Positions 14,255-60,640 of a stretch of 64,000 bases of DNA are shown in pieces. The stretch is from Bolinopsis microptera (taxonomy: Eukaryota; Ctenophora; Tentaculata; Lobata; Bolinopsidae), in NCBI RefSeq assembly GCF_026151205.1, contig NC_087075.1, positions 12,076,303-12,140,302 on the forward strand, read 5' to 3'. The notes beneath the pieces are model-generated. The model did no database searches and was not told where the DNA came from. It saw nothing but the letters and a program-made list of their open reading frames with translations. Every line of letters begins with the position of its first letter. The first letter of the stretch is position 1. The translations under genes were made by a program, and so were the position numbers.

Positions 14255-16921
14255 CTAGCACCTGCTTGAAACAAATCCTCTCCAGCTTCTCCAAAAACAA
14301 GAGTATAATATATTCTTGTACAATTCACTGTAGAAAATGGGGTTAAGAATGCTGTTGATGGGTAGAACAACCAGAGCTAGCACTTCAAATAGTAGGGGAG
14401 GAGGACTTTCACTAACTATTTGGAAGTACACAGCAGCCCCGATAAAAGACAACCAACTTGCTAGCTGTGTTCCTATCATCAAAGAAACCTTCAGAGCGAG
14501 TGAGGTGGCTGCAGCGTTCTGTCTGTTCATCCCACCTCCAATGTCTCCCACTTCACGTCGAGAAACTAACTGCTTTCTAACTATGATGAGGTAAGTGAGA
14601 GTAACTATAATCAGTAGTAGCGATACTATAATAAGGTAGGAGAGTTTATAGATGAAGTAGGATTCTTGTTCTTTAAAGACGTTGTGGACACACAGACGGG
14701 TGTTTCCATAATATCCGATCTCTATGATATCAAATATGTTGTCTTTACTGGTGAAGGTGTTGACTGTTGAGGTCCTTGACAGTTGTGTATAGATCAGTTT
14801 TGTTAGAGTAATATATTTCATGTATGTGGTCTAACCAGGTCATGTTCACATAGCTAGAGCTGATGAAGGGATTATCTAGAAAGTTTTTAAAGAACACGTC
14901 TGTACGGAAGATATTTTGTATGGCAACCAAAGGAAGGATGGGAATCAACGCATTTATCACATTTATGGCAATAAGTATTTCAGATGTTATAAATATTGTT
15001 TTAAGTTTGGTTTGATGATGTACTCTGACACAATTGACACACCTGACTACACTCATAAGGGCTATTGCACTGAGGGACCCATGTGAAGCTATTGAGAATA
15101 TCAGTCCAAGTGCCTGACAGAAGATACTTGTTCTCCAAGTTTCATCTTGAATACAGTAGTTGCCATTTGCACGAAGAACCAGGGCTGCTACCACAATACC
15201 ACAGCTATACAGACCCATACTACCATCAAAGAAAAGAACCTGGAGACACAAGAATCTGTCAACTTTGCCGGCTGATGTGGAGGGAGTGCTGTTGAAGCAT
15301 CTGATCCCCCCTCATAAGTTCAGTATGATCATTGAGACTCCTGCAATAGCTGTAAAAGCAAGCAGAAAGTAAAAACTGAGGAGTAGGTTGGATGAATTAT
15401 CTGAGTTACAGGGATCACATTCGTCACGTCCGTTGGAGCAATGTTTGATATTATCACAAGTTTTATCAGGAGTCACCCACTCTGTACTCTCAGAGGTATT
15501 GAGGGAGCAATAGAAACGTCCTGGACATTCTGCCTCATCCGCACCGTTAGAACAATCTAATTCTCCGTCATATAGGTTAGATAATTGGCAAGTTTCATCA
15601 TAGTATTTGGGCGTACAAGTGAAATCAATCTGCTTGACCATACCCATACTTGTTAACACGATTCTGTCGCAAAACTTAGCCCATTTTTCATCATCAAAGT
15701 CAGGAGTCTCAGAGCAGTTTGTTTTACAGTAGCTGGAAATATCATCATTATTATTGAAGAGGTGTATGATAGTATAGTTCATGCATCGGTTGATAGGGTT
15801 GATGAGACGGTTTTCATTATTCAAAATTGCAGAGCAGTCAAAATTTTCAATATTACGAAAGATGCATGAATTGATTAACTCTGAAAAGATGTGTTTTGTG
15901 TCACAATATTCTTGTTGTGACAAGCAAATACTTGAGGAGTTTAGGATAGGACATTCTACTTCCACAAAACCCTCGCATAAACACTCATCAGCGCCATCAA
16001 GACAATCATTCTTACCATCACACAACTGTGGAAAGGTAACACATCCAGTGCGTTTTGGACAAAAGAAAACGTCTTTACTGGTATACAGCCACATTCGTCT
16101 GTTAGGCAATCAGAAATTGCGTCGCAGTAACGGTTGTCGTTATCGAGTTTGCAGAAACAGGGTACTTCAGAGATTGCTATTATCCACGAAGGAGCAATTT
16201 CTTCTCTGAGCACAAGATCCATGGCGCTAACCGGAAATTGACACACACCTTCCGTTATACTGTTATATTTTCATTACGACTTGTATTAATAACATTGAGT
16301 GGACGAGAGGAGTCTCCAGATTTGATAAAGATTTTGTGAGTTGGTTGGCACTTTCCTTTAAGTTTAGACCCTACCTCTAGGGCTGGAATTTCCCAAGGAT
16401 AATCATTTAAGTTAACGATGTTAGGAATACTAATAGGAGATTCGTTACTAAAATGAGGTACGTCAGGAGTAGGAGGTTCGTTACTAAAAGGAGGTACGTC
16501 AGCAGTAGGAGGTTCGTTACTAAAAGGAGGTACGTCAGGAGTAGGAGGTTCGTTACTAAAAGGAGGTACGTCAGGAGTAGGAGGTTCGTTACTAAAAGGA
16601 GGTACGTCAGGAGTAGGAGGTTCGTTACTAAAAGGAGGTACGTCAGGAGTAGGAGGTTCGTTACTAAAAGGAGGTACGTCAGCAGTAGGAGGTTCGTTAC
16701 TAAAAGGAGGTACGTCAGCAGTAGGAGGTTCGTTACTAAAAGGAGGTACGTCAGCAGTAGGAGGTTCGTTACTAAAAGGAAGTACGTCAGGAGTAGGAGG
16801 TTCATTGCTAAAAAGAAGCTCGCCACCAGAAGGAGGTTCGTCAGGAGTATGAGGCATACCATGAGGGTTGGTGAGACAAAAAAAGAGTGAACACTATCAG
16901 AGTTATCAATAGTTTGAACAT
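14255..16921 (-). pseudogene. LDLa-ectodomain GPCR, broken left copy
   Basis: Collinear with the intact receptor at 22031-24595 but carrying at least five lesions. A net length change follows the signal peptide (ATG at 16921; the repeat frame at 16857 is out of phase). An 8-nt insertion lies near 16258-16268, and a 2-nt insertion near 16081-16085. A nonsense change turns Phe-Arg (TTTAGA) into TTATGA at about 15312, at the end of TM1. A 7-nt insertion lies near 14755-14765, in the extracellular loop before TM5. Individual pieces remain highly readable: LDLa modules between about 15500 and 16110, and TM6-TM7 with ILNPIFY near 14340. The N-terminal stalk is a 36-bp repeat, unlike the 15-bp repeat of the right copy. 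Indels from sequencing error are a residual possibility, but the nonsense codon and the size of the insertions argue for true decay. Confidence 0.85.
16440..16840 (-). repeat. 36-bp coding minisatellite in the GPCR pseudogene stalk
   Basis: About eleven 36-bp units, translating on the minus strand as a 12-residue period containing NEPPTPDVPPFS or NEPPTADVPPFS. Ala/Pro variants are distributed in blocks along the array. All six frames stay open because the period is a multiple of three and poor in stops, which explains the open frames on the opposite strand. Confidence 0.92.
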
Positions 16922-19199: not shown

Positions 19200-20219
19200 A
19201 TGAAGATCATCCTACTGCTATGTGTGTTGGTAACCCTCTCTGGAGCCATCACAAGGAAACAAAGGAAACAACTGAAGGGACTCCGGGACCTCCTAACAAA
19301 CCTCCCAAATAATGTGTTCGCTACTTGTAACATAGCCTTCTTCTCCACCGTAGTGGACTACAAAACTGCCCAGGAGAACTGCAGGAACTTTGACATCGGA
19401 GCAGGAGCAGTGAAGGGGAACCTTGTGACAATTAACACAGATGAGAAAAACGAAGATCTTAAGATGCTGCTAGAAATGACATATCCAGAGGATCAACAAC
19501 CAGAAAGTGAATGGACGAAAACTAAATGGGTGTGGTCTGGGTTGAGGAAGGTGAATAATGTGGTTGGATCACCCTACCAGGCAGTGGTCTACCTCAACGA
19601 CGACTGGCAGTGGGCTAATGGATCAACACCCGGAAACTTTGCTAAATGGGCACCAAAACAGCCAGATCAGAATGCACTGAAGTACCGCAAGAACGGTTGC
19701 GATGAAAAGCCCAAATGCTACCAGAACCAGATGAGAATCAACCACGATGGAGAGTGGGACGACACCTATAAGTTCATGGAGCACCCCTACGCGTGTGACT
19801 ACCAAGGAAAATACATCATTTCCTCGAACAAGGTTAGTTGGGAGGATGCCAAGCTGGCCTGTGACAATGCTGGTCTGCATTTAGCTAAGATAAGGTCAGG
19901 TGGGGAGCTGAACGAGATGATGACAGCAATGGACTATTTCCTGGGTAAAAGAGAGGAAACTTTGAAAAGGTGGGACCCTGACAACTGGATGTGGTTGGGA
20001 GGAAACGACATCAATGAGGAGAAGCAGTGGGTCTGGGAGGCCGATGGTAAGAAGATAGAGTGGGACATCCCCTGGCAGAAGAAAGCTGGAAATGACAATT
20101 CCGAAAGGAAAATGAAGGAGGGGCAGGATGTAATGGCTTTATCAAGATGGGGAAAAGTTGATGATTCCTACCGTCTTGGGGTATATCGACCATTCGCTTG
20201 TCAATGTCCGGACACTTAG
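19200..20219 (+). CDS. secreted protein with two C-type lectin domains
   Basis: Single-exon, 339 residues. Residues 1-17 form a strong signal peptide. Lectin domain 1 spans about 43-200, with Cys43, 61, 167, 173 and 199, WVWSGL, a QPD motif at 154-156 (the Ca2+/sugar site signature that usually favours galactose) and GEWDD at 185-189 in place of the classical WND. Domain 2 spans about 202-336, with WEDAKLAC, WMWLGG and WGKVDD. It lacks an EPN/QPD signature and most inner cysteines, so it may not bind Ca2+. No transmembrane segment follows, so the protein is probably secreted. Its 3' end faces the LDLa GPCR 1.8 kb away. The start is fixed by the signal peptide. The first part of the left-copy pseudogene, including the region upstream, is nearly identical. 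Confidence 0.9.
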   Translation: MKIILLLCVLVTLSGAITRKQRKQLKGLRDLLTNLPNNVFATCNIAFFSTVVDYKTAQENCRNFDIGAGAVKGNLVTINTDEKNEDLKMLLEMTYPEDQQPESEWTKTKWVWSGLRKVNNVVGSPYQAVVYLNDDWQWANGSTPGNFAKWAPKQPDQNALKYRKNGCDEKPKCYQNQMRINHDGEWDDTYKFMEHPYACDYQGKYIISSNKVSWEDAKLACDNAGLHLAKIRSGGELNEMMTAMDYFLGKREETLKRWDPDNWMWLGGNDINEEKQWVWEADGKKIEWDIPWQKKAGNDNSERKMKEGQDVMALSRWGKVDDSYRLGVYRPFACQCPDT

Positions 20220-22030: not shown

Positions 22031-24595
22031 CTAGTGCATTCTTGAAGTGAATCCTCTCCAGCTTCTCCAAAAACGAGTATTTATATTCTTGTACAGTTCA
22101 CTGTAGAAAATGGGGTTAAGAATGCTGTTGATGGGTAGAACAACCAGAGCTAGCACTTCAAACAGTAGGGGAGAAGGACTATCACTAACTATTTGGAAGT
22201 ACACAGCAGCCCCGATAAAAGACAACCAACTTGCTAGCTGTGTTCCTATCATCAGAGAAACCTTCAGAGCTAATGAGGGGGCTGCAGCGTTCTGTCTGTT
22301 CATCCCACCTCCAATGTCTCCCACTTCACGTTGAGAAACTAAATGCTTTCTAACTATGATGAGGTAAGTGAGAGTAACTATGACCAGAAGTAGCGATACT
22401 ATAATAAGGTAGGAGAGTTTATAGATGAAGTAGGATTCTTGTTCTTTAAAGACGTTGTGGACACACAGACGGGTGTTTCCATAATATCCGATCTCTATGA
22501 TATCAAATATGTTGTCTTTACTGGTGATGGTGTTGAGGTCCCTGACTGTTGTGTACAGATCAGTTTTGTTAGAGTAATATCTTTTATGTATTTGGTCTAA
22601 CCTGGTCATGTTTACATAGCTAGAGCTGATGAAGGGATTATCTAGAAAGTTTTTAAAGAACACGTCTGTACGGAAGATGTTTTGTATGGCAACCAAAGGA
22701 AGGATGGGAATCAATGCGTTGATCACATTTATGGCAATAAGTATTGCAGATGTTATAAATATTGTTTTAAGTTTGGTTTGATGATGTACTCTGACACAAT
22801 TAATACACCTGACTACACTCATAAGGGCTATTGCACTGAGGGATCCATGTGAAGCTATTGAGAATGTCAGTCCAAGTGCCTGGCAGAAGATACTTGATCT
22901 CCAACTTTCATCTTGAAAACAGTAGTTGCCATTCGCACGAAGAACCAGGGCTGCGACCACAATACCACAGTTATACAGACCCATACTACCATCAAAGAAA
23001 AGAACCTGGAGACACAACAATCTGTCGACTTTGCCGGCTGATGTGGAAGGGTTGCTGTTGAAACATCTGATCCCCCCTCTAAAGTTCAGTGCTATTGCTG
23101 AGACTCCTGCAATAGCTGTGAAAGCAAGCAGAAAGTAAGAACTGAGGAGGAGATTGGATAACCCATCTGAGTTACAGGGATCACATTCGTCACGCCCGTT
23201 GGAGCAATGTTTGATATTATCACAAGTTTTATCAGGAGTCACCCACTCTGTACTCTCAGAGGTATTGAGGGAGCAATAGAAACGACCTGGACATTCTGCC
23301 TCATCCGCACCGTTGGAACAATCTAATTCTCCGTCACATAGTTTTGATAATTGGTAGGTTTCATCATAGTATTTGGGCATACAAGTGAAATCAATCTGCT
23401 CGACTATACCCATACTTGTTAACACGATTCTGTCGCAAAACTTAGCCCATTTTTCATCATCAAAGTCAGGAGTCTCAGAGCAGTTTGTTTTACAATAGCT
23501 GGAAATATCATCATTATCATTGAAGAGGTGTATGATAGTAAAGTTCAGGCATCGGTTGATAGGGTTGATGAGACGGTTTTCATTATCCGAAATTGCAGAG
23601 CAGTCAACAGACTCAACATTACGAAAGGTGCATGAATAGTTTAACTCTGAAAAGATGTGTTTTCTGTCACAATATTCTCTTTGTGACAAGCAAATACTAG
23701 AGGAGTTTAGGATAGGACATTCTACTTCCACAAAACCCTCGCATAAACACTCATCAGCGCCATCAAGACAATCATTCTTACCATCACACAACTGTGGAAA
23801 GGTAACACATCCAGTGCGTTTTGGACAGAAGAAAACTTCTTTACTGGTACAGCCACATTCGTCTGTTAGGCAATCAGAAATTGCGTCGCAGTAACGGTTG
23901 TCGTTATCGAGTTTGCAGAACCAGGGTACTTCAGAGATTTCTATTATCCACGAAGGAGCAATTTCTTCTCTGAGCACAAGATCCATGGCGCTAACCGGGA
24001 ATTGACACACACCTTCCGTTATATTTGCATTACGACTAGTATTAATAACATTGAGTGGACGAGAGAAGTTTCCAGATTTGATAAAGATTTTGTGGGTTGG
24101 TTGGCACTTTCCTTTGGACTCTTCATTTAGGGTTGGAATTACCAGATGATAATCATTTAAATTAACGATGTTAGGAATAGTAAGTTCGTCAGGAGAAGAT
24201 TCGTCAGGAGAAGATTCGTCAGGAGAAAGTTCGTCAGGAGAAGGTTCGTCAGGAGAAGGTTCGTCAGGAGAAGGTTCGTCAGGAGAAGGTTCGTCAGGAG
24301 AAGGTTCGTCAGGAGAAGGTTTGTCAGGAGAAGGTTCGTCAGGAGAAGGTTCGTCGGGAGAAGGTTCGTCAGGAGAAGGTTTGTCAGGAGAAGGTTCGTC
24401 AGGAGAAGGTTCGTCAGGAGAAGGTTCGTCAGGAGAAGGTTCGTCAGGAGAAGGTTCGTCAGGAGAAGGTTCGTCAGGAGAAGGTTCGTCAGGAGAAGGT
24501 TCGTCAGGAGAAGGTTTGTCAGGAAGGGAAGGCATACCAGGGTTGATAAGACGAAACAAGGTGAATGAGATCAGTGGTATCAATCGTTTGAACAT
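22031..24595 (-). CDS. LDLa-repeat ectodomain GPCR (GRL101-like), 854 aa
   Basis: Single-exon, 854 residues. A hydrophobic signal sequence (about 1-20) is followed by some 22 copies of a DEPSP pentapeptide (about 26-136), an acidic Pro/Ser stalk likely to be extended and O-glycosylated. A Cys-rich ectodomain to about 485 follows. It contains at least three LDL-receptor class A-like modules, recognisable from CDGKNDCLDGADE, CDGELDCSNGADE and HCSNGRDEC, with several N-glycosylation sites. Seven TM helices occupy about 488-840. The third helix ends SVVRC instead of DRY, and TM7 has ILNPIFY. The arrangement matches leucine-rich/LDLa receptors such as snail GRL101, but no leucine-rich repeats are visible. 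Role: plasma-membrane receptor whose LDLa modules probably bind Ca2+ and a protein or lipoprotein ligand. It converges on the secreted lectin gene. The start is supported by the signal peptide and by conservation with the left copy. Confidence 0.9.
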   Translation of the reverse strand: MFKRLIPLISFTLFRLINPGMPSLPDKPSPDEPSPDEPSPDEPSPDEPSPDEPSPDEPSPDEPSPDEPSPDKPSPDEPSPDEPSPDEPSPDKPSPDEPSPDEPSPDEPSPDEPSPDEPSPDELSPDESSPDESSPDELTIPNIVNLNDYHLVIPTLNEESKGKCQPTHKIFIKSGNFSRPLNVINTSRNANITEGVCQFPVSAMDLVLREEIAPSWIIEISEVPWFCKLDNDNRYCDAISDCLTDECGCTSKEVFFCPKRTGCVTFPQLCDGKNDCLDGADECLCEGFVEVECPILNSSSICLSQREYCDRKHIFSELNYSCTFRNVESVDCSAISDNENRLINPINRCLNFTIIHLFNDNDDISSYCKTNCSETPDFDDEKWAKFCDRIVLTSMGIVEQIDFTCMPKYYDETYQLSKLCDGELDCSNGADEAECPGRFYCSLNTSESTEWVTPDKTCDNIKHCSNGRDECDPCNSDGLSNLLLSSYFLLAFTAIAGVSAIALNFRGGIRCFNSNPSTSAGKVDRLLCLQVLFFDGSMGLYNCGIVVAALVLRANGNYCFQDESWRSSIFCQALGLTFSIASHGSLSAIALMSVVRCINCVRVHHQTKLKTIFITSAILIAINVINALIPILPLVAIQNIFRTDVFFKNFLDNPFISSSYVNMTRLDQIHKRYYSNKTDLYTTVRDLNTITSKDNIFDIIEIGYYGNTRLCVHNVFKEQESYFIYKLSYLIIVSLLLVIVTLTYLIIVRKHLVSQREVGDIGGGMNRQNAAAPSLALKVSLMIGTQLASWLSFIGAAVYFQIVSDSPSPLLFEVLALVVLPINSILNPIFYSELYKNINTRFWRSWRGFTSRMH
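24180..24520 (-). repeat. 15-bp coding minisatellite encoding DEPSP repeats
   Basis: About 22 units of 15 bp (plus-strand unit TCGTCAGGAGAAGGT) lie in perfect register inside the receptor gene. Unit variants (TTG for TCG, GGG for AGG, GAT or AGT for GGT) are non-randomly placed, and the outermost units nearest the ectodomain are the most diverged. The opposite-strand open frame is an artefact. Confidence 0.93.
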
Positions 24596-27337: not shown

Positions 27338-30199
27338 TTAATCCTCGTAGGTCATGCTGTCGATCGAACCAGTCAGATGGGTTCTGACATAGTAAAAGTC
27401 CTCGTATGCCTGGTTGACTTTCAGTTTCAGGATATCTTTTGTACTGTATGAAACTCCACACGCCTTCACTCCTTTCAGTACTTGATTACCTCCCAAAATT
27501 TCCACCTTCACTGTTGTTCCACAGTCCATTTCTAAAGGCACCGTCCTAAAGGGATCTTCTCCCGAGGCTTCAGTCTCCTGACCACTTCCAACTTTGTAAG
27601 TGACTTTGACACTTTCTGGTTTCTCACCGTCCGCCCAGAAGAACTCAATGTCATCCAGAGCACAGATCTGTCTGAGATTGATCTCAAACCAGCCATTCTC
27701 ACCAGCGTCCCACAAGGTGGAATTTGAAGCATCCACCAGGCTATCTGGATCTGAACTACCAACACTTGCTGAAACTGGCTTACCCTTTGACACGTCATCA
27801 AGAATATCGTAGGAAATTCCAATGAGATTGATGGTTCGGATGCCGAAGTAGTTCTTCCCGCTCCACGGATCTTTCTTTCCTTTTCTCAAGTCCATCTTTA
27901 TTTTGGTAGTCTTCATGTCCCATCCATTGAGATAACTCCAATGGTTGAACCAACCCTCTACTCGCTCATCTTCGTGTGTCTTCACCAGAACGTAGTCACC
28001 ATCTTCACCCATAGCATAGATGTCGTACTCTGCTGGCTTTGACCAACCCCACCATTGGAACTTTATTTCCTGTATTGTGGAAGGCTTCTCAAGATCAATT
28101 TCAAAATCAGCAGTTTCCTGTTTGCAATAGGCAGTGTTGCCATGTTTATCTGTCATCGCACGACTACTGGTTCCAAAGCATTCTGAAGTGACAATCTTTT
28201 CACTAGCAATATCAGACGACTTGTTTTCTTTTTCCCGCTGCGATAAAACAACTGGTAGCAGTGCATTTTGCACTGTTTCTTTATTTAGATTTGGTTCCTT
28301 TATTGCCTTTTCAAGATCAACCCACACCGCAAAGTTATAAGGGCATTCGGTTGTGGCATCTTCTAATATTTCAAATCGATCTTCAGGATTCACCAGCTTA
28401 CTTGCGATTCTCAATTTTTCAGAGAGCCTATAACCAGCCAGGTTCTTTTGAGCTTCATTCATAACACGGAAGTAGTATGCTTGTCTCATCCAAGTATACT
28501 GGATTCCCCAATGTGAATTTGACGATCCCCACCCAGAGACATCGTTACCCAGCACCCAGTTTCCACCTCTGTACCATATGTAAGCGCAGTGACCAGGCTG
28601 TCCCACTGGGACGGCAGCTACTCCATAAGCATGACACATTCCTGCAGCGAACTTTGATATAGCACCACAGACACCCCCAATCTCATGCATTGATTTGAGG
28701 GATACTGGGAGGTAGTAGTAATACGGCGAACCAGCGTGGACTGATGTTCCGTCATCGTTTTTTAGTTTGTATGACATCATTCTGTGGGTAGCGCCCCCTA
28801 TTTTAGATGGGTTATCATAACCTTCGGGAGTGTTTTCCCGAGCCCAAATGTGCTCTTCTTCTGTTTGCCAGGATCCTACTACATACCTGAGATGCCAGGC
28901 TGTTCCTTCAAAGAATGGTGAGAACAGCACATCTTCTTCACTCCATCTCATGTAGGTCTGGTACCTTGCCTTCCAGTCGATCGTGTTTCTTCCGACAGCC
29001 ATGGAGGCTACTGGTGTTGAATGTGTGATTGCCGTAGCAACAGCAAGTCGAAGTCTCAGTGGTTCATCTTTGATAGCAGGATCTAGCTGGATCAGGTCTC
29101 CTAGTATTTTCAGAGCCTTTCGGTATTTATTACTTTGAATATCCCCCGACGTCATGAACATTTCTAATGCTTCCCTGTTTGTTAGAATCCAATTCAGCGT
29201 CTCATCACTAAAGTCAAGAAACCCTGCTTTGTCTTGTATCTGTTTCATGAGCCACCATTGAAGGACATCCAGCGATCCCTCAGTCGAATTAGCATACGTT
29301 TTGACCTCCTGAAGGTTTTTCCCAGCGACCTTGTTAACAATTCCTTCTTTCAATGCGTCAACTTTTAATTTAAACTCTTTCATTCCCGTATATTGGATAG
29401 CTTTATCTGTTCCTGGTAGAATAAGTGTGTTCCACTTGAAGCCGTTATTACCGCCCCAGAATATAATGTCTTTCGCTGTTGAAATCTCTCTTCGATAAGG
29501 AAAGGTCGCTGAGAGAGCTTTCCCATTGAAATATATTTTGTAAAAGTTGTCCATTAAAACTATTTTCATGACGAAATCTTCGTAGGATTTTAAGCTTGGC
29601 AGTTCACACCTTACCTCTGACCCCCAGCCACCAAGTTTAGAGTTCAACACTGTTTTCCGCCAGTTTGGTCTAGGGTTGAGGTGGAACAGAATGTTGCCAC
29701 TGTCATCCAAAATGTTGGCACTAAACCAGGATGTATCTGCAGAGTAAGTTCCGTGGACCTCTATAAAATCACCTGGTTCCAAGACCTTGCCTAAACTGTA
29801 CTTGATGTTGATAGCGGGATTTTCTACTGTACCTTCTTCTTGTCCACCTTGTTCATCTGTTCGTTCTGCTAACTGTACCAGATCTGTTTCATCCTGGTAC
29901 AGAAAGGTCTCTGATTCTTCTTCCGAATGTCCAATGTTCATCCAATCATCATCGTACGTCTCTTCAGTGTCTTCCGATGCCCTTCTAAGTCTCTCCAAGT
30001 AGTTCTCAGAGTCTTCCTTGATGGGATCTGTTGGTAATACATTCTCGTGCTTAAAGTGATGTTCCTGATGGTTGTACTCCTCCATTGATTCATTTTCCCA
30101 AGCGTCGTCGTAATCATCCCGGTAGGTAACGTCGTCGTCAAAGGCTGCTTCAACACAACAGCCTGCTAACATTGCAGTAAGCAGGGCTAGCCGGATCAT
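27338..30199 (-). CDS. secreted galectin / transglutaminase-like / discoidin protein, 953 aa
   Basis: Single-exon. A signal peptide (1-18) and a strongly acidic region (19-125) precede the folded domains. The galectin-like domain spans about 128-262 with every canonical sugar-contact residue: His173, Asn175, Arg177, Asn186, Trp192, Glu195 and Arg197. A helical linker follows. The transglutaminase-like core spans about 385-580 with GGVCGAIS (Cys511), PGHCAY (His537) and GNDVSGW (Asp553), a plausible Cys-His-Asp triad. Two F5/8-type-C (discoidin-like) beta-sandwiches span about 668-796 and 800-918. Such folds act as cysteine proteases, deamidases or crosslinking acyl transferases. The sugar-binding modules would place this one on glycans outside the cell. 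It is not a classical animal transglutaminase or cytosolic PNGase, both of which have different flanking domains. The start is set by the signal peptide. Reaction and substrate are unknown. Confidence 0.85.
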   Translation of the reverse strand: MIRLALLTAMLAGCCVEAAFDDDVTYRDDYDDAWENESMEEYNHQEHHFKHENVLPTDPIKEDSENYLERLRRASEDTEETYDDDWMNIGHSEEESETFLYQDETDLVQLAERTDEQGGQEEGTVENPAINIKYSLGKVLEPGDFIEVHGTYSADTSWFSANILDDSGNILFHLNPRPNWRKTVLNSKLGGWGSEVRCELPSLKSYEDFVMKIVLMDNFYKIYFNGKALSATFPYRREISTAKDIIFWGGNNGFKWNTLILPGTDKAIQYTGMKEFKLKVDALKEGIVNKVAGKNLQEVKTYANSTEGSLDVLQWWLMKQIQDKAGFLDFSDETLNWILTNREALEMFMTSGDIQSNKYRKALKILGDLIQLDPAIKDEPLRLRLAVATAITHSTPVASMAVGRNTIDWKARYQTYMRWSEEDVLFSPFFEGTAWHLRYVVGSWQTEEEHIWARENTPEGYDNPSKIGGATHRMMSYKLKNDDGTSVHAGSPYYYYLPVSLKSMHEIGGVCGAISKFAAGMCHAYGVAAVPVGQPGHCAYIWYRGGNWVLGNDVSGWGSSNSHWGIQYTWMRQAYYFRVMNEAQKNLAGYRLSEKLRIASKLVNPEDRFEILEDATTECPYNFAVWVDLEKAIKEPNLNKETVQNALLPVVLSQREKENKSSDIASEKIVTSECFGTSSRAMTDKHGNTAYCKQETADFEIDLEKPSTIQEIKFQWWGWSKPAEYDIYAMGEDGDYVLVKTHEDERVEGWFNHWSYLNGWDMKTTKIKMDLRKGKKDPWSGKNYFGIRTINLIGISYDILDDVSKGKPVSASVGSSDPDSLVDASNSTLWDAGENGWFEINLRQICALDDIEFFWADGEKPESVKVTYKVGSGQETEASGEDPFRTVPLEMDCGTTVKVEILGGNQVLKGVKACGVSYSTKDILKLKVNQAYEDFYYVRTHLTGSIDSMTYED

Positions 30200-31460: not shown

Positions 31461-34400
31461 TTATCTACCCGCAGAGCAGCCCTTGGGCTTTTTTAAAGAA
31501 CTAGTTTCACTTATACTTTCACTGAGTGTCTTATCTGTTTTATCTAACTGAGGCTCATCCGTTTGGATATGAGCAATCGCTTGACTTATCTCACTTTCTA
31601 TTCGAATAAGAGTTGAAATGTTCTGATCGTTAGCCCCGGAATTCAAACTACTGCAACTAATCGTATCGGGTAGATTGTCAGCTTTATAACAGCTACCAAA
31701 GATGTTATCAGCAGGAACATTCGAGGTGATTGGAGTTGTCGGATATTCGACATCTCGAATACCAGCTTTACTTTCAGGTATGGATTTGCTGCAAGCTGAT
31801 GGTTTCCTAGCTCCTCCGCGAGACTCTGTTTTGCTCGTGTCTTCATCTGTAACATTGCTACAATTATTACTTGCTGAGGATGTGGAAATTTTCTTATCGT
31901 TATTTCTAGATGCCCTCCTTGATACAGACTCTAGGATATTCTGAAAACCCTGACTGACGGTGCTGCTCCTGGTGGAGGAACCCTTCCTGCTAATACCACC
32001 GCGTTCAATGACATCACGTAAATTAACACGTGACCACAGACTCATCTTGCCATTGGTCCTAATAGCAGGGACCGACCCCGCTTCCTCTTGGATCGTTTCT
32101 GCTCCTGATGATTCTAAGACCTTCTGTAGACTAACCCGGCCCCAAACTTTCTTGGAACCCAGATCAGCACCTCCTGCACCATCACTAGCAGCAGCAGCAG
32201 CCCTTGTTGTCATAGACCGCTGCAGAGAATCTATAAAGGCTATCTGCACTGAAGATATCCTCGAAGGGAGAACTGACATTTTCTTGGAAATAACTTTCAT
32301 GTTAGTGTCAGCTGCCTCTCTGTAGAGAGTGAAGCAAAGTGCCACCAGAGCCAGGCCAGTGGACGCGAACATGAGGACCCTAACCACCTCCATAGCTTGG
32401 GTGAAATCCATCGACTGAGGAGTCACGTCTCCGAACCCTATAGTCCCGTATGTAATGACAGCAAAGTAGGTGCTATTCATGAACGAAGTGACGCTGTTAG
32501 GGTCTCGAGCGTGCTGTATTGCGAAGAATATGGTGAAATGAAGTAAAAGGAACAGGATAAAAGCTAAAGAAACCATGGCTATTTTAATAAATATTCGCGA
32601 GTTTTTGTTCCCCTGATCAAACGAACAGAACTTGTACAGACGCTTTAAAAGTTTCATCAGCTTGTTGATTCCCTGCATGAAGAACAAGTTGATGACAGCC
32701 AGGTGAGTTGTCATCACAGGTATTCCGATCAAAGCGTAGACAATACAGAACCAACGACCATTGTTATCATGAGGTGCCACCACTCCGTAGCCTGAGGTAG
32801 TCAGGTGGTTTAAGAGTTATCATAAGTAAAAGCAATATTTACCAGCGACTTTACGTTTCAAGAATATTGTAATGAACCGAAGTTTCGGCACGAATCTGCC
32901 TTTGACAAGATAAAACCTTTCAATAATATTGAAGCTGAGCCTAAAGCTAAGTAAGCATCCTTTGTTATTTTCCAGTATATGTACCTATAGTTGAGATGAC
33001 GGTGAAGGAGAAAGCAAAGGCGTTCCAGAAGCCCCAAGCTCCAGGTTGGGACACATCGTGGTCCTTGTTACAGCCGGACGCAATCAACTCCGTCAGTCGT
33101 TCTATCTGGGAATCCGGCATGTTCCTGGGAAAGTGTGTCAGCTTGATTATCTTTCTTTTTTTAATTAATTTTCCTCTCAAACGAGACAAATTTCTTCCTA
33201 ATTTCTACAGCTCTATTAAAAGGCTTGACTGAGGAAAATACGAGTATTATTTGAGAGTTTTCATGATGGTAGAGTTAGCAAAAGGTCATTAAAAATACTG
33301 ATTGAAGTTGAACTGTTCGAAGAATTTGCGTTGATAAACTCACTCAGTGTGCTCCAAGAAATGAATCCTTTGTTTTTTCAAACTTTCCATTTCCTTTTCT
33401 TCGGCATCGCCCTCCAACCACTGAAAATAGATTTCCGCTTTCAATAATCCCATGAAGTTATCCATTCATCCATTGATAGAACCCAACATTTTGAAGACAT
33501 CGAAGGACAGCTTTCATAACTTATAGTGTAGATATAACCTTGCTTTTCTAAAACAAGAGGATTAATTAAAATTGCAGTCATCTCTCACCATAAAGATGTA
33601 GGTTCCGAATGCGATGTGAACGCAAAGTAACAAAGGTAAAACTGCTGCCCTGATCAAGAGTTTCTTTTTGTCCTTAGGGGACGTTTTGCCTTGTACTCCG
33701 TCTGAAAATAAGGACATTATATTATTCGGTAACTTGATAAATGAAAAATATTTTATGATCAAGCTTCAAAACAATGTTCAATTTTGTGATTGAAGTTAGG
33801 TGTTCATAAAATCACGGAAGTTTAGTGTTCCGGCAATAAATATATAGTGGAGCTGCAATTGATATTCTTTCGCAGGTAAGTTTATATTTGATTCGCACCT
33901 TCTAATTGTTGCGCCTCCTTCAATTCCGCCATCATAGCCCTAAAACCAGACATCTTGTTTTGGTTTAAAGAAATGAGTGGGACTCCCTGGTTTTGCGTCG
34001 GAGAAATTTCTACTTCCACTGGTAATTCTTGTAGTTTCAAAGTTAGTGATGGTGGACGGGCTTTTTGCCACAATGCTTTTGATCGGAGATTTCGGACTCT
34101 TACGGTCACTTCCTTAGATTTTGGAGGCTCCTCGTCAAGAAGCTGTAATTCCTCTTCTAATTGACCGTCCAACAAATTTCCAGGTACAGAAATATTGTCC
34201 GACAAAGATATTTTATTATTTGATTGGAAGAAATCATCTTTAATCAAAGCTTCAGATTCATCTGATTTAGAGAAATGGTTATCTGTAACCTGGTTGTTTT
34301 GATCGACTTGGTAAGTACATTCGGCCGGTGATGAGGGAGACGACGAGGACTCTGTCCCACTAGAACTACTCAAATTATCCGTCATAAGATAGCTTTCATC

Positions 34401-48470: not shown

Positions 48471-48500
48471 GTGGTGACTAATCCCATCTTTCACACTAAA

Positions 48501-49852
48501 CAAACACGGCGGACCACTCTAAAACCACTCAGTAGTCAGTATCTCATAGTAACAAACACGCCGGACCACTCTAAAACCACTCAGTAGTCAGTATCTCATA
48601 GTAACAAACACGCCGGACCACTCTAAAACCACTCAGTAGTCAGTATCTCATAGTAACAAACACGCCGGACCACTCTAAAACCACTCAGTAGTCAGTATCT
48701 CATAGTAACAAACACGCCGGACCACTCTAAAACCACTCAGTAGTCAGTATCTCATAGTAACAAACACGCCGGACCACTCTAAAACCACTCAGTAGTCAGT
48801 ATCTCATAGTAACAAACACGCCGGACCACTCTAAAACCACTCAGTAGTCAGTATCTCATAGTAACAAACACGCCGGACCACTCTAAAACCACTCAGTAGT
48901 CAGTATCTCATAGTAACAAACACGCCGGACCACTCTAAAACCACTCAGTAGTCAGTATCTCATAGTAACAAACACGCCGGACCACTCTAAAACCACTCAG
49001 TAGTCAGTATCTCATAGTAACAAACACGCCGGACCACTCTAAAACCACTCAGTAGTCAGTATCTCATAGTAACAAACACGCCGGACCACTCTAAAACCAC
49101 TCAGTAGTCAGTATCTCATAGTAACAAACACGCCGGACCACTCTAAAACCACTCAGTAGTCAGTATCTCATAGTAACAAACACGCCGGACCACTCTAAAA
49201 CCACTCAGTAGTCAGTATCTCATAGTAACAAACACGCCGGACCACTCTAAAACCACTCAGTAGTCAGTATCTCATAGTAACAAACACGCCGGACCACTCT
49301 AAAACCACTCAGTAGTCAGTATCTCATAGTAACAAACACGCCGGACCACTCTAAAACCACTCAGTAGTCAGTATCTCATAGTAACAAACACGCCGGACCA
49401 CTCTAAAACCACTCAGTAGTCAGTATCTCATAGTAACAAACACGCCGGACCACTCTAAAACCACTCAGTAGTCAGTATCTCTTTGTAACAAACACGCCGG
49501 ACCACTCTAAAATCACTCAGTAGTCAGTATCTCATTGTAACAAACACGCCGGACCACTCTAAAACCACTCAGTAGTCAGTATCTCTTTGTAACAAACACG
49601 CCGGACCACTCTAAAATCACTCAGTAGTCAGTATCTCATTGTAACAAACACGCCGGACCACTCTAAAACCACTCAGTAGTCAGTATCTCATAGTAACAAA
49701 CACGCCGGACCACTCTAAAACCACTCAGTAGTCAGTATCTCTTTGTAACAAACACGCCGGACCACTCTAAAATCACTCAGTAGTCAGTATCTCATTGTAA
49801 CAAACACGCCGGACCACTCTAAGACCACTCAGTAGTCAGTATCTCATAGTAA
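48501..49852. repeat. 52-bp minisatellite, exactly 26 copies
   Basis: 1352 bp equals 26 x 52 with no indel anywhere. Unit starts CAAACACGCCGGACCACTCT and ends CTCATAGTAA. Copy 1 has one variant base (CGGCGG). Copies 2-18 are practically identical. Copies 19-26 carry variants (CTCTTTGTAA, AAAATCAC, CTCATTGTAA, AAGACCAC). It lies 1 kb downstream of the desaturase gene's 3' end. No coding potential. Confidence 0.97.
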
Positions 49853-50830
49853 CTGGGATTAAGGTAGACAGACAAGTGCTCTGATTATAAACTTTTGAAG
49901 AAAGATAAAACGGATATCTAGCTACGAAAAATTAGCATTATATTGATACCAGGATCGTTTTTGTTAGTTTTTCTTCTCTTTTGCAAGATTATATCTTTTA
50001 TGGCAGTTCTGGATTGACTGCTTGTGATATCTAGCTTAGGACATTCTCAAACTGCCATCTTCTACACTGACTTTTCTACACATTTCTTTCCTGAGACGGG
50101 AAGCTACGGGCAAATTCGGACACGGACTATCCATACCCTATGGGGGCAACCGGGTTACCGATTGAAGCGCTCCAGGAATTACTTGACATCTAGTATATAC
50201 GGTGACCACAACTTCATGCTTCTTTAAAGTTGAAGTATTGTTTGAGACGTTATTTTTAGGCAAACTCGGCATTGAGGAAAAAGTTATTTAGACCAAAGAT
50301 AACAATTATGTTACTTATACCTTCTATACTGCAAAAGCTCTGGAACAGAGAGATTTAATTAATGGGCCGCATCTCACAACAATGAGAATTTGATCAGCTG
50401 ATTAACTAATTAACTAATTAATTAATTATCTAACTAAGCAATTATTCAGCAAGATTCGATCACTGAGGATCATTATAACACTCAGCATAAAAGAGCGCAC
50501 ATAATTCAAAAATTAATAAGAATTAGTACAACAAATATAAAAACAGATATATTATTTAATAACAAAAATTAAATAAGCAACAAGCACAGATCATATACAT
50601 AATCATTGAGGGTCTTGTGGTTGTGTGAATCTGTGGTGTGTGTGACAAGTAAAACTCTGACTCCCAGTCTTACAAATCTGTCTGTCCTTTAGGTTTAATT
50701 GGGTGGTGATGAGGTACTTCCTCCACGTGACCACTAATTGGCGGCCACCATGATACCAATACAGTGGTGAGATGGAGGCCGGTTAGAGGCCGAATGGTGA
50801 CCGTACCCGACCACCTATATCCCTGTACAG
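49853..50830. other. intergenic and probable desaturase 3' UTR
   Basis: No gene recognised apart from the presumptive 3' UTR of the minus-strand desaturase. A TTAATTAA-rich patch lies at 50400-50435. Confidence 0.45.
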
Positions 50831-54302: not shown

Positions 54303-56675
54303 CCTATCTGTAGCTGGTATAGTGGTTTGTTAGAATGTTACATAATTATAGAGCAGTAAGTTTTAATATCTATTTTATAAGAATTTCAGAAGTTGTTACC
54401 GAATGTATTGATGTACGCGTGGGTTTATTTAGAGAACGTGAATAAAGACTGAATTGAAAACTAAAAATTGAAATAACCGAAATGATGCAAAATATGGCAG
54501 AAATAGTGAAAAGTTAGAACCATTTTCATGTAAATTTTTAGCCTTCTCGCTTATTTTAATTGAGTCAGTCTATGAGAAAATGAAAAAAAACGTTGCCCTC
54601 TTTGATAGGGAGAATGGCGAAACAGTTTCTACGTGTCGAAATGGAAGATCTCGATAAACGATCAAGCCGTTATTTGTTTCGCAATGTTTTAAAGAGTAAC
54701 CTACAAACAGCAATCATCTTAAAAAATCCAAAAATACCCAACACACTAGTGATGGGTCCCTCTATAAAGGCGGAGAATACAACAACTGAATAGCAAACAA
54801 ACCACATAGATATGTACCCTCGATAAGATCGATTTGTCGTCAGATCCCATCAGTCAACTCAACTCAATATTGCGGTTCTTAAGAACACAAGCTGTTAAGA
54901 TGAATAAAAGTGATCACATAATAACGTAGCAGGAGAATATTTGGTCAAATCGACATCAAACCAAATTTAGAGAGTCCTGCGACTTGCGAGAGTCCTGTGA
55001 GGATACGACGCTAAAAAATAACAATTTCACTACTCTTATATAACGAAGGGGCAACTGTAGGTTATATTTCTTGTGACTATTCTGGGGAAGGGTAGGTAGG
55101 TTAAATAAAGGGAGCAAGGAAATAACTAAATAACACTAAATTCCTGCCCGTATGAAACAGTGACACTTGAAGAAAAATGTTGACAGGAAAAGAGAACATG
55201 AGTTTAGAAACGAAACCTTGTTATCTTTAAAACTTTAAACTACCCCCTCTACTTCTAGGTTTGTTATCTAGCATCCATCACAAGGCCAAGTTACAGCACG
55301 TCATCTCAAAAGTTCACGTGGCTAGCACAAATAACTTTAAAATTTCATCAAAAATTCCATCAAGAAGATATTGAATTTGCAACTAGCGTTTTTCACATGA
55401 CATCAGATTGGAGAGAGAGAGAGAGAAGCAAGGCACATGATTGCTCGATTTACAAAACTTAACCTCGCGGTTCAATAATATATAGGCCTCGGCGAGGTCA
55501 CATGACATTCATCAAATATATACCCTTGTGACACACGAACCCTCCAGAATAAAACCTTAACTTAATATTCTTAACAAGATTTCGCGACTGTGAACTGTAA
55601 TACCGAACGCTGGTCTCAGAACGATGCTACTTTAATCTAATCTCAGGCTATAATTCTTTAAACATGATATGATAATATTTTTAGATTCGTAGCCAGACAA
55701 ATATTTCTGAAAGTACTCCTTCCATGTTTGAGAAATTAATGAGCTAAATTCTAAGAAGTTAGGTTTATTTTAGGCCCCAGGGCGGGGGGCGGGGCAGGAC
55801 TTTGGGCATGCAGTCTCATTACTATGAGGTCTCAAAAGATAAGGATAATTTGATTTGATAAGAAACGTATCTGAACTGGAAGAAATCAGATTTGCAGTCA
55901 GACCACAGCTGTTATTGATGTGTGTTATAATATTATACAACGGAGGTGTGACCCAGTGGCTGGTTTATTATTGGTTCTATTATATTCTGTTAGTATGCAA
56001 TGAAGCAGAAACAGGCATCTGCAATCTGAAAAACCCATGTAACCCATGTTTTCACTATTATATACTATCTGTGCTCAAGCAGGAGCTTATTGTTAGGGGA
56101 ACAGTGAGCGTTTTCTAAGAATTATTGTTTCAGTAACACAGTACTCTCAAAGTGCGTATATTATATATAATATATATCATGTAGTAGATTCTAATGATCA
56201 AATATAAAATATTTCCAAGAAATATAACCCAGCTGAAATCACCTCATTTTGGTAGAGATATGACCTGATATAAATCATGAAGTTGTATAATGTAATCACG
56301 GAATGTACCAGTGTCCAGTACCACTAGCTCTTATCTTACAGTGTATAACACCTACCAATTACCAAGGAAATTGTATTAAATTCAAACGTCTTGGTAATCA
56401 AATATAAGACTTATTAATACCTGACACACGTGATTAAGATATAAGACTAGATAATATTTAACACGCACGACTAAGATATAACATTATAAGACTTGATAAT
56501 ATTTAACATGTGACTAGTCACCATGATAACTCTTTATCACTAAAACTTAACATACATATTATGTGACATAAAGTACTGGATTGCAGGCAGTGGAAAAGGT
56601 CAACCCCAAAAGATAAGTAACTAACTGTTTTACCACCTCTAATATTTGCTATATATTTGCTATACATCAGCGGAG
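54303..56675. other. scd upstream region, no further gene
   Basis: Expected to hold the desaturase promoter and any 5' non-coding exon. None could be identified by eye. Short direct repeats occur at 56415-56500 (ATAAGACT...GATAATATTTAACA, twice). A GAGAGA run lies at 55411-55425. Confidence 0.4.
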
Positions 56676-59600
56676 ACAGCCTCTAATATTTGCTATAGAA
56701 ACAGTCTCTCCCTCTACGACTCTACTAGAGACAGCCTCTAATATTTGCTATAGAACCAGTCTCTCCCTCTACGACTCCACGAGAGACAGCCTCTAATATT
56801 TGCTATAGAACCAGTCTCTCCCTCTACGACTCTACTAGAGACAGCCTCTAATATTTGCTATAGAACCAGTCTCTCCCTCTACGACTCTACTAGAGACAGC
56901 CTCTAATATTTGCTATAGAACCAGTCTCTCCCTCTACGACTCCACGAGAGACAGCCTCTAATATTTGCTATAGAACCAGTCTCTCCCTCTACGACTCTAC
57001 TAGAGACAGCCTCTAATATTTGTTATAGAACCAGTCTCTCCCTCTACGACTCTACTAGAGACAGCCTCTAATATTTGTTATAGAACCAGTCTCTCCCTCT
57101 ACGACTTTATTAGAGACAGCCTCTAATATTTGCTATAGAACCAGTCTCTTCCTCTACGACTCTACTAGAGACAGCCTCTAATATTTGCTATAGAACCAGT
57201 CTCTCCCTCTACGACTCTACTAGAGACAGCCTCTAATATTTGCTATGGAACCAGTCTCTCCCTCTACGACTCTACTAGAGCTGAGACAGCCTCTAATATT
57301 TGCTATAGAACCAGTCTCTCCCTCTACGACTCTACTAGAGACAGCCTCTAATATTTGCTATAGAACCAGTCTCTCCCTCTACGACTCTACGAGAGACAGC
57401 CTCTAATATTTGCTATAGAACCAGTCTCTCCCTCTACGAATCTACTAGAGATAGCCTCTAATATTTGCTATAGAACCAGTCTCTCCCTCTACGAATCTAC
57501 TAGAGACAGCCTCTAATATTTGCTATAGAACCAGTCTCTCTCTCTACGACTCTACTAGAGACAGCCTCTAATATTTGCTATAGAACCAGTCTCTCCCTCT
57601 ACGACTCTACGAGAGACAGCCTCTAATATTTGCTATAGAACCAGTCTCTCCCTCTACGACTCTACTAGAGACAGCCTCTAATATTTGCTATAGAACAAGT
57701 CTCTCCCTCTACGACTCCACGAGAGACAGCCTCTAATATTTGCTATAGAACCAGTCTCTCCCTCTACGACTCTACTAGAGACAGCCTCTAATATTTGCTA
57801 TAGAACCAGTCTCTCCCTCTACGACTCTACTAGAGACAGCCTCTAATATTTGCTATAGAACCAGTCTCTCCCTCTACGACTCCACGAGAGACAGCCTCTA
57901 ATATTTGCTATAGAACCAGTCTCTCCCTCTACGACTCTATTAGAGACAGCCTCTAATATTTGCTATAGAACCAGTCTCTCCCTCTACGACTCTACTAGAG
58001 ACAGCCTCTAATATTTGCTATAGAACCAGTCTCTCCCTCTACGACTCTACTAGAGACAGCCTCTAATATTTGTTATAGAACCAGTCTCTCCCTCTACGAC
58101 TCTACTAGAGACAGCCTCTAATATTTGCTATAGAACCAGTCTCTCCCTCTACGACTCTACGAGAGACAGCCTCTAATATTTGCTATAGAACCAGTCTCTC
58201 CCTCTACGAATCTACTAGAGATAGCCTCTAATATTTGCTATAGAACCAGTCTCTCCCTCTACGAATCTACTAGAGACAGCCTCTAATATTTGCTATAGAA
58301 CCAGTCTCTCTCTCTACGACTCTACTAGAGACAGCCTCTAATATTTGCTATAGAACCAGTCTCTCCCTCTACGACTCTACGAGAGACAGCCTCTAATATT
58401 TGCTATAGAACCAGTCTCTCCCTCTACGACTCTACTAGAGACAGCCTCTAATATTTGCTATAGAACAAGTCTCTCCCTCTACGACTCCACGAGAGACAGC
58501 CTCTAATATTTGCTATAGAACCAGTCTCTCCCTCTACGACTCTACTAGAGACAGCCTCTAATATTTGCTATGGAACCAGTCTCTCCCTCTACGACTCTAC
58601 TAGAGACAGCCTCTAATATTTGCTATAGAACCAGTCTCTCCCTCTACGACTCCACGAGAGACAGCCTCTAATATTTGCTATAGAACCAGTCTCTCCCTCT
58701 ACGACTCTACTAGAGACAGCCTCTAATATTTGCTATAGAACCAGTCTCTCCCTCTACTACTCTACTAGAGACAGCCTCTAATATTTGCTATAGAACCAGT
58801 CTCTCCCTCTACGACTCTACTAGAGACAGCCTCTAATATTTGCTATAGAACCAGTCTCTCCCTCTACGACTCTACTAGAGACAGCCTCTAATATTTGCTA
58901 TAGAACCAGTCTCTCCCTCTACGACTCTACTAGAGACAGCCTCTAATATTTGCTATAGAACCAGTCTCTCCCTCTACGACTCTACTAGAGACAGCCTCTA
59001 ATATTTGCTATAGAACCAGTCTCTCCCTCTACGACTCTACTAGAGACAGCCTCTAATATTTGCTATAGAACCAGTCTCTCCCTCTACGACTCTACTAGAG
59101 ACAGCCTCTAATATTTGCTATAGAACCAGTCTCTCCCTCTACGACTCTACTAGAGACAGCCTCTAATATTTGCTATAGAACCAGTCTCTCCCTCTACGAC
59201 TCTACTAGAGACAGCCTCTAATATTTGCTATAGAACCAGTCTCTCCCTCTACGACTCTACTAGAGACAGCCTCTAATATTTGCTATAGAACCAGTCTCTC
59301 CCTCTACGACTCTACTAGAGACAGCCTCTAATATTTGCTATAGAACCAGTCTCTCCCTCTACGACTCCACTAGAGACAGCCTCTAATATTTGCTATAGAA
59401 CCAGTCTCTCCCTCTACGACTCTACTAGAGACAGCCTCTAATATTTGCTATAGAACCAGTCTCTCCCTCTACGACTCTACTAGAGACAGCCTCTAATATT
59501 TGCTATAGAACCAGTCTCTCCCTCTACGACTCTACTAGAGACAGCCTCTAATATTTGCTATAGAACCAGTCTCTCCCTCTACGACTCTACTAGAGACAGC

Positions 59601-60640
59601 CTCTAATATTTGCTATAGAACCAGTCTCTCCCTCTACGACTCTACTAGAGACAGCCTCTAATATTTGCTATAGAACCAGTCTCTCCCTCTACGACTCTAC
59701 TAGAGACAGCCTCTAATATTTGCTATAGAACCAGTCTCTCCCTCTACGACTCTACTAGAGACAGCCTCTAATATTTGCTATAGAACCAGTCTCTCCCTCT
59801 ACGACTCTACTAGAGACAGCCTCTAATATTTGCTATAGAACCAGTCTCTCCCTCTACGACTCCACGAGAGACAGCCTCTAATATTTGCTATAGAACCAGT
59901 CTCTCCCTCTACGACTCTACTAGAGACAGCCTCTAATATTTGCTATAGAACCAGTCTCTCCCTCTACGACTCCACGAGAGACAGCCTCTAATATTTGCTA
60001 TAGAACCAGTCTCTCCCTCTACGACTCTACTAGAGACAGCCTCTAATATTTGCTATAGAACCAGTCTCTCCCTCTACGACTCTATTAGAGACAGCCTCTA
60101 ATATTTGCTATAGAACCAGTCTCTCCCTCTACGACTCTATTAGAGACAGCCTCTAATATTTGCTATAGAACCAGTCTCTCCCTCTACGACTCTACTAGAG
60201 ACAGATTCTAATATTTGCTATAGAACCAGTCTCTCCCTCTACGACTCTATTAGAGACAGCCTCTAATATTTGCTATGGAACCAGTCTCTCTCTCTACGAC
60301 TCTACTAGAGACAGCCTCTAATATTTGCTATAGAACCAGTCTCTCCCTCTACGACTCTACTAGAGACAGCCTCTAATATTTGCTATCGAAACAGTCTCTC
60401 CCTCTACGACTCTACTAGAGACAGCCTCTAATATTTGCTATGGAACCAGTCTCTCCCTCTACGACTCTACTAGAGACAGCCTCTAATATTTGCTATATAA
60501 CCAGTCTCTCCCTCTACGACTCTATTAGAGACAGCCTCTAATATTTGCTATAGAAACAGTCTCTCCCTCTACGACTCTACGAGAGACAGCCTCTAATATT
60601 TGCTATAGAAACAGTCTCTCCCTCTACGACTCTACGAGAG
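56676..60640. repeat. 55-bp minisatellite, about 72 copies (4 kb)
   Basis: Units start ACAGCCTCTAATATTTGCTA and end ACGACTCTACTAGAG. Register is kept throughout except for one 5-nt insertion near 57286. Unit variants include CTCCACGAGAG, GAATCTACTAGAGATAG, CTATTAGAG, GAACAAGT and TGTTATAG. Each unit contains GTCTCT and AGAGAC in inverted orientation plus the palindrome CTCTACTAGAG, so single strands could form hairpins. No coding capacity. Confidence 0.97.

Follow-up and report, generated by a model that had tools for sequence, protein, structure and literature searches.

In a window of 64,000 nucleotides (nt) from the genome of the ctenophore Bolinopsis microptera (positions 12,076,303–12,140,302 of NC_087075.1), we found a single-exon gene whose 953-residue product may be a secreted, galectin-guided cysteine enzyme whose core was acquired laterally from bacteria, a reading to which we give an even chance. 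A bacterial cysteine enzyme would have been captured by ctenophores, where its sequence occupies about 18 places in this genome, and one branch of copies would have joined it to an animal galectin (with a WSC-like stretch upstream in one copy) and to F5/8C-like domains; that these copies make up a class of lectin-guided secreted enzymes undescribed in any animal is, in our estimate, evenly balanced. The parts are of known kinds, and their combination may be new: a signal-like start is followed by an acidic region with an RLRR motif, a galectin domain (residues 135–249), the core (around residues 264–633) and one or two F5/8C-like domains.

A core of bacterial kind

Sequence comparison places the core in a bacterial family that has not been named. 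This kinship had escaped an earlier note made from the letters of this DNA, as had the expansion of the gene family in the genome and the presence of galectin in only some of its copies. Relatives were retrieved from a bacterial and archaeal sample with one genome per species, from which stretches were fetched by two peptide patterns; 177 of the 259 pattern-matched bacterial stretches encode a relative of the core, and the best 80 of these 177 loci were kept, yielding 82 frames. The best match to the core comes from Planctomycetota (42% identity over 355 residues, E = 1e-89), and the top matches are mostly from this phylum, at 36–43% identity. The best 80 of the 177 loci comprise 30 from Verrucomicrobiota, 23 from Planctomycetota, 11 from Bacillota, four from Kiritimatiellota, two each from Actinomycetota and Lentisphaerota, one each from Bacteroidota and Armatimonadota, and six unplaced. 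Additionally, six Enterococcus plasmid records match the core at 28%, and one Enterococcus plasmid protein is annotated as putative mucin/carbohydrate-binding and matches Mucin_bdg (2.9e-28). Signal-like starts occur in several of 60 bacterial frames. No Pfam or NCBIfam model scored above its cut-off on the core in the ctenophore and bacterial frames scanned, and an NCBIfam profile scan of the whole 953-residue protein gave no match. A viral source was also considered and rejected, since none of 28 pattern-matched stretches from viral contigs encodes a relative and phage records were without match.

A tree of 94 cores, 82 bacterial and 12 from the ctenophore (from 12 of its approximately 18 places, leaving aside the copies on C7 and C10, the pair on C13 and two of those on C3), grouped the ctenophore rows in a single clade with support of 100/99. 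Its sister clade (100/96; 100/99 for the union of both) holds 25 rows, of which 21 are from Planctomycetota, one from Bacteroidota and three unlabelled, and two other planctomycetal rows fall elsewhere. The same arrangement was recovered with 74 rows, after removal of 20 long-branch or near-duplicate rows, three of them from the ctenophore (nine remain) and including the C6 copy with a branch of 1.68; support was then 100/99 for the ctenophore clade, 99/95 for the planctomycetal sister clade and 100/96 for their union. Within this sample, the position is as one ancient transfer would give. Because the core is spread more widely among bacteria, we read the transfer as having gone from bacteria to the ctenophore, a direction that is supported, not proven. 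Bacterial contamination was ruled out: copies of the core lie on eight contigs, six of them of 16–24 Mb, one copy contains introns, and the galectin is in the same chain.

Copies of the core in the ctenophore genome

A search of the genome with the whole protein returned 52 matches, with core sequence in the window, at a second place on C4, on C5, C6 and C7, at two places each on C8 (C8a and C8b) and C13, at eight on C3 and at one on C10. As far as the matches show, galectin sequence adjoins the core in the window, in the C7 copy and in both C8 copies. The copies on C7, C10 and one of those on C13 have stops inside the matched pieces, the other C13 copy is a 71-residue fragment, and three of the C3 copies are split over two frames. 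Transglut_core matches five times across the genome, never at a locus of the core family. The C3 copies form two groups, at 1.57–1.70 Mb and at 6.02 Mb, with repeated F5/8C-like domains after the core and no galectin matches. Elsewhere in the genome, an Antennapedia-type probe gave 19 matches at 30–55% identity, none of them a clear Hox gene, and a search for COX1 found none. The terminal part of an ionotropic glutamate receptor (iGluR) from this genome matches four PDB sequences alone at E ≤ 1e-15, three of them ML032222a iGluR of Mnemiopsis leidyi and the other 4zdm, of Pleurobrachia, both ctenophores, whereas the complete receptor has kainate receptor chains at the top by total score. The matches to the whole protein, to galectin, to the Antennapedia-type probe and to Transglut_core are all on contigs C1–C13.

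In the C8a copy, introns with GT-AG borders interrupt the chain near residues 182, 268 (where galectin and core meet) and 887, and none falls within the core. Two exons carry the galectin, a further one the core and most of the F5/8C part, and a last one the terminal portion. Introns are not expected in the bacterial genes of this family. Upstream of C8a lies a stretch that matches WSC just under the cut-off (2.7e-5) and may belong to the same gene. The C7 copy (L017, G000:C7:15940800-15944400) can be aligned with the window, flanks included, in blocks that are 95% and 90% identical, but a frame change and a TGA disrupt its coding sequence. These blocks run into the non-coding flanks on both sides, which rules out that one is a retrocopy of the other and marks the pair as a segmental duplicate.

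The uninterrupted frame of 953 residues described in the earlier note was borne out to its exact ends (Table 1), on the minus strand, which the note did not give. Against two paralogues, the ratio of nonsynonymous to synonymous substitution rates (dN/dS) of the window gene is 0.21 and 0.19, rough values with dS of 1.1 and 2.0, and the comparison with the C5 copy was saturated and gave no value. Purifying selection on the gene has support short of proof from these ratios, and a chance frame is ruled out by them together with the homologues.

Table 1. Features of the fusion gene, with positions in the window and residue numbers of the predicted protein.
Feature	Position	Strand	Evidence
Whole single-exon frame, 953 residues plus stop	27338..30199	-	Open reading frame; dN/dS against paralogues
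Signal-peptide-like residues 1-18	30146..30199	-	Eye and hydropathy; paralogue at C4:4.02 Mb similar
Acidic region, residues 19-125	29825..30145	-	Composition: 37 D/E, 7 K/R
RLRR at residues 70-73, furin-like motif, possible propeptide cleavage site	29981..29992	-	Single occurrence in the acidic region
Galectin domain, residues 135-249	29453..29797	-	PF00337, 1.9e-14; fold matches, best Z 10.5
Galectin sugar-contact stretch, H173 to R197	29609..29683	-	Sequence positions
Bacterial-type core, residues 264-633 as modelled	28301..29410	-	Best bacterial match 1e-89 at 42%; model pLDDT 90.7, pTM 0.91
Transglutaminase-like segment, residues ~413-579	28463..28963	-	3isr Z 6.7, transglutaminase 2 Z 6.3; bridge to PF01841
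Cys511, probable nucleophile, start of predicted helix	28667..28669	-	94/94 cores; model helix 248-260
His537	28589..28591	-	94/94 cores
Asp553, claimed third residue, poorly conserved	28541..28543	-	35/94 cores
F5/8C-like domain 1, residues 678-773	27881..28168	-	25.4 bits, cut-off 28.2; 9/10 family members match
F5/8C-like domain 2, matched residues 822-880, weak	27560..27736	-	PF22633, E 0.0059, 17.6 bits
pLDDT, predicted local distance difference test; pTM, predicted template modelling score.

Transglutaminase-like kinship and a probable catalytic pair

The earlier note had proposed a secreted galectin joined to a core of transglutaminase fold. The galectin stands by profile and by fold; the core stands by bridging sequences and, modestly, by its ranking in a fold comparison, but not by the Transglut_core profile (PF01841). 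The bridge comes from eight bacterial genomes with members of the family, in which 22 Transglut_core matches were found and 16 loci cut out for comparison. Two of these loci, L119 and L120 from Akkermansia, exceed the PF01841 cut-off of 23 bits by a small margin, with 26.5 and 24.7 bits, and match a profile built from the 94 cores over its length with 85–90 bits, against 5.4 bits for the best of 1,420 shuffled frames; Cys511 and His537 align with their GGIC and GPHAW motifs. Both were obtained by the PF01841 search and not by the GQPGHCA pattern. With hhalign, the core profile aligned with all 16 sequences, bridges included, at a probability of 63% over 77 columns, and weakly, at 6.6% over 25 columns, with the 13 ordinary transglutaminase-like sequences. 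Weak traces of PF01841 also appear in one of ten ctenophore family members (E 0.1) and in L085 (0.032) and L030 (0.06), the last two under the cut-off.

Residues 264–633 were modelled with high scores (Table 1). In the second of two fold comparisons, the first row was 3isr, a putative cysteine protease of transglutaminase-like fold (136 residues at 4.0 Å), and the second was transglutaminase 2 (152 residues at 3.9 Å); short helical matches follow from Z 5.9 downward, with other transglutaminases at Z 5.1, 4.8 and 4.7. In the model, Cys511 opens a helix, His537 lies three residues ahead of a strand and position 553 comes after the next strand. Since the sequence bridge and the fold agree, we accept that the core is related to the transglutaminase-like superfamily, although we do not file it as a member of PF01841; a transglutaminase-like fold as such, to which the model lends modest support, is probable.

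Cys511, His537 and Asp553, offered in the earlier note as a catalytic triad, are all at the positions claimed, and the first two are invariant in the 94 cores, as is W548, with N552 in 61. The invariance of His537 is partly built in by the retrieval pattern, whereas Cys511 lies outside both patterns. Asp553, by contrast, is found in only 35 cores (7/12 from the ctenophore and 28/82 bacterial), and for that reason the claimed triad shrinks to a probable Cys-His pair with a third partner that may vary. Two of six aligned C3 cores carry K in place of Asp553.

Domains flanking the core

The galectin domain matches PF00337 well above its curated cut-off (53.7 bits against 22.1), and the canonical set of seven sugar-contact residues is complete, as the earlier note had it: H173, N175, R177, N186, W192, E195 and R197. 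The spacing between N186 and W192 is one residue less than in the aligned galectin-1. When the protein was searched against sequences of the Protein Data Bank (PDB), the best stretches among 60 of the 117 rows fell in the galectin. There are 30 galectin matches across the genome; a 745-residue frame on C4 (L016, G000:C4:1272400-1275200) has four galectin-like matches in tandem.

The proposed signal peptide and acidic prodomain-like region likewise agree with what we found. Residues 1–18 look signal-like by eye and hydropathy, the best 12-residue Kyte-Doolittle mean within residues 1–25 being 2.23, and in the paralogue at C4:4.02 Mb a comparable start likewise precedes an acidic stretch. The RLRR motif in the acidic region is furin-like and a possible propeptide cut site.

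Two F5/8C-like domains had also been claimed. The first falls just under the cut-offs (PF00754, 25.4 against 28.2 bits; PF22633, 27.2 against 27.8) and the second is weaker, even when scanned alone (Table 1). F5/8C matches at E ≤ 1 occur in nine of ten family members of the ctenophore genome, the best at 5.3e-14. Residues 534–733 of a first structure model had pLDDT below 50, as did most of the F5/8C part. Among the bacterial frames, 47 of the 82 were scanned together and gave F5/8C in 20, PF22633 in 15, NPCBM and Mucin_bdg in two each, and a ricin-type lectin and PA14 in one each.

Proposed activity and alternatives

We propose that a gene encoding a transglutaminase-like cysteine enzyme for secretion, whose nearest counterparts in the sample are those of Planctomycetota, may have entered the animal genome in or before ctenophore history and multiplied there, and that one branch of copies would have acquired an animal galectin ahead of the core. 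The product would leave the cell by way of its signal peptide, the acidic region with RLRR may hold it inactive until cleavage, and the galectin and F5/8C-like domains would dock it on galactose-bearing glycoproteins or mucus, where Cys511 with His537 would attack an amide or peptide bond. We infer catalysis, its reaction type, docking, the propeptide and a role in feeding or defence; most likely, the protein would act outside the cell as a cysteine hydrolase that its galectin anchors to glycoproteins. We rank hydrolysis above crosslinking for two reasons: many members of the wider bacterial family bear glycan-binding domains, some of them in genera that live on mucus, and the top fold match is a putative protease.

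Alternatively, the protein might be a secreted transglutaminase proper, whose galectin would gather glycoproteins from the mucus, egg coat or matrix of ctenophores for crosslinking. The secreted, lectin-bearing layout would suit this role, and the top ten rows of the fold comparison include transglutaminase 2 (Z 6.3) as well as a transglutaminase from a fish (4.8) and the streptococcal TglA (4.7). However, its nearest relatives are bacterial, hydrolysis is the commoner role among bacterial members of the superfamily, 3isr, a putative cysteine protease, scores on a par with transglutaminase 2 (Z 6.7 against 6.3, a difference of less than 1), and the catalytic Asp is not conserved. Additionally, beta domains flank the core on both sides in animal transglutaminases, but none was found at E ≤ 1 in Pfam scans of the protein and of ten family members, and galectin and F5/8C-like matches occupy their places. 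We consider a crosslinker of this kind unlikely.

Several results weigh against a captured, galectin-guided hydrolase. With respect to origin, the ctenophore cores branch beside the planctomycetal clade, as its sister, and not from within it, and the tree is unrooted with this ctenophore as the sole eukaryote in the sample, so that older eukaryotic descent is compatible with it. The core could then represent an ancient family of eukaryotes that most lineages have lost and that bacteria share by common descent or received from eukaryotes. This we find improbable, as the best 80 of the 177 loci span at least eight bacterial phyla and the C8a core is intronless, whereas its flanking parts have introns. 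With respect to kinship, the Pfam scan of the 953-residue protein showed no Transglut_core at E ≤ 1, only two of the 16 PF01841 loci match the core profile (next best E 0.21), Foldseek returned nothing for the core at E ≤ 0.001 (reported E 1.9 and 4.5), and a Z of 6.7 is in the range that the fold-comparison tool calls common. The retrieval has its own bias, as one of its two patterns contains the His537 motif and the loci kept are the best 80 of 177.

With respect to function, 59 of the 94 cores have a gap or a residue other than Asp at position 553, the galectin of C8b has lost contact residues, and dN/dS between C8a and C8b is 0.8. The poorly conserved third residue and this last ratio, along with the stops in the copies on C7, C10 and one of C13, would also fit a non-enzymatic lectin or adhesin that uses the enzyme fold as a scaffold or peptide-binding module. 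Such a protein is a doubtful alternative in view of the retention of Cys511 and His537 in all 12 ctenophore cores and of the low dN/dS of the window gene against two paralogues (0.19–0.21). Lastly, the 12 planctomycetal frames scanned singly (L018, L021 and ten more) have neither F5/8C nor any other glycan-binding Pfam family. The docking parts are therefore not common to the nearest planctomycetal kin, which also weakens the argument for hydrolysis and lowered our confidence in a captured, galectin-guided enzyme from slightly better than even to even. Given these bare frames, the F5/8C-like domains of the ctenophore would be either later additions or parts retained from an older ancestor and lost in the planctomycetal bacteria.

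Neighboring features in the window

An ion-channel frame adjoins the fusion gene at 31461–32783 on the minus strand (Ion_trans_2, 2.4e-15) and has the look of a two-pore potassium channel. Also on the minus strand, 14255–16857 and 22031–24595 are similar receptor stretches with proline-rich tandem repeats and LDL-receptor-A-like and rhodopsin-like parts; the former is split over several frames, and the latter matches 7tm_1 (3.5e-4) and Ldl_recept_a (6.2e-4), both under the cut-off. An unbroken C-type lectin-like frame with a signal-like start occupies 19200–20219 on the plus strand (Lectin_C, 3.4e-5, above the cut-off). Satellite DNA forms long arrays at 48499–49853, 56673–60643 and 62099–63808, with repeat units of 52, 55 and 204 bases that are 97–99% alike.

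Comparison with known systems

Neither this architecture nor the bacterial kinship of a ctenophore protein nor the bacterial family itself was found in the literature searched. In its available part, PMC11797021 contains neither "galectin" nor "transglutaminase", and neither "transglutaminase" nor "planctomycet" occurs in the available main text of PMC13342648, a compendium of animal gene transfers. Nine foreign genes, four of them bacterial and eight with introns, have been described in the ctenophore Mnemiopsis leidyi (PMC6005172). The likeness to our case lies in foreign genes of a ctenophore, most of them with introns, and none of the nine is named as transglutaminase-like or galectin in the available part of that paper; ML219316a, uncharacterised and without a Pfam domain, is a possible exception. 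If true, our proposal would extend the short list of bacterial genes reported from ctenophores by a multi-copy case and would illustrate how fusion with an animal lectin can redirect a captured enzyme. Likewise, it would provide a structural model and a superfamily assignment for a bacterial family present in Akkermansia, Planctomycetota and others.

With this GGVCG...GQPGHCA family (Planctomycetota, Verrucomicrobiota including Akkermansia, Clostridium and Enterococcus plasmids), the ctenophore protein has in common a core of about 360 residues and the Cys-His pair, as well as signal-like starts in several members and F5/8C in 20 of 47; the bacterial proteins differ in that no galectin is among the Pfam families of the 47 scanned frames and in the lack of F5/8C in the 12 planctomycetal frames scanned singly. 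With the transglutaminase-like superfamily (PF01841, 3isr, transglutaminase 2), the core shares the L119/L120 bridge, a Cys at a helix start, a His shortly ahead of a strand and the leading fold matches, but it lies out of reach of the profile, varies in the third residue and has a helical front of about 150 residues.

The profile, the fold match and the seven contact residues are common to the protein and to galectins (PF00337), from which it differs by a signal-like peptide and by its fusion to an enzyme-like core. The statement of the earlier note that galectins are rarely fused to enzymes meets an exception in plant GT31 galactosyltransferases, which bear a galectin domain and number six in Arabidopsis, according to the available part of the source (PMC4431829). 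As described there, these plant enzymes resemble the ctenophore protein in combining a galectin and an enzyme domain in a single chain, but differ in that the enzyme is an unrelated glycosyltransferase and the chain has one membrane-spanning segment.

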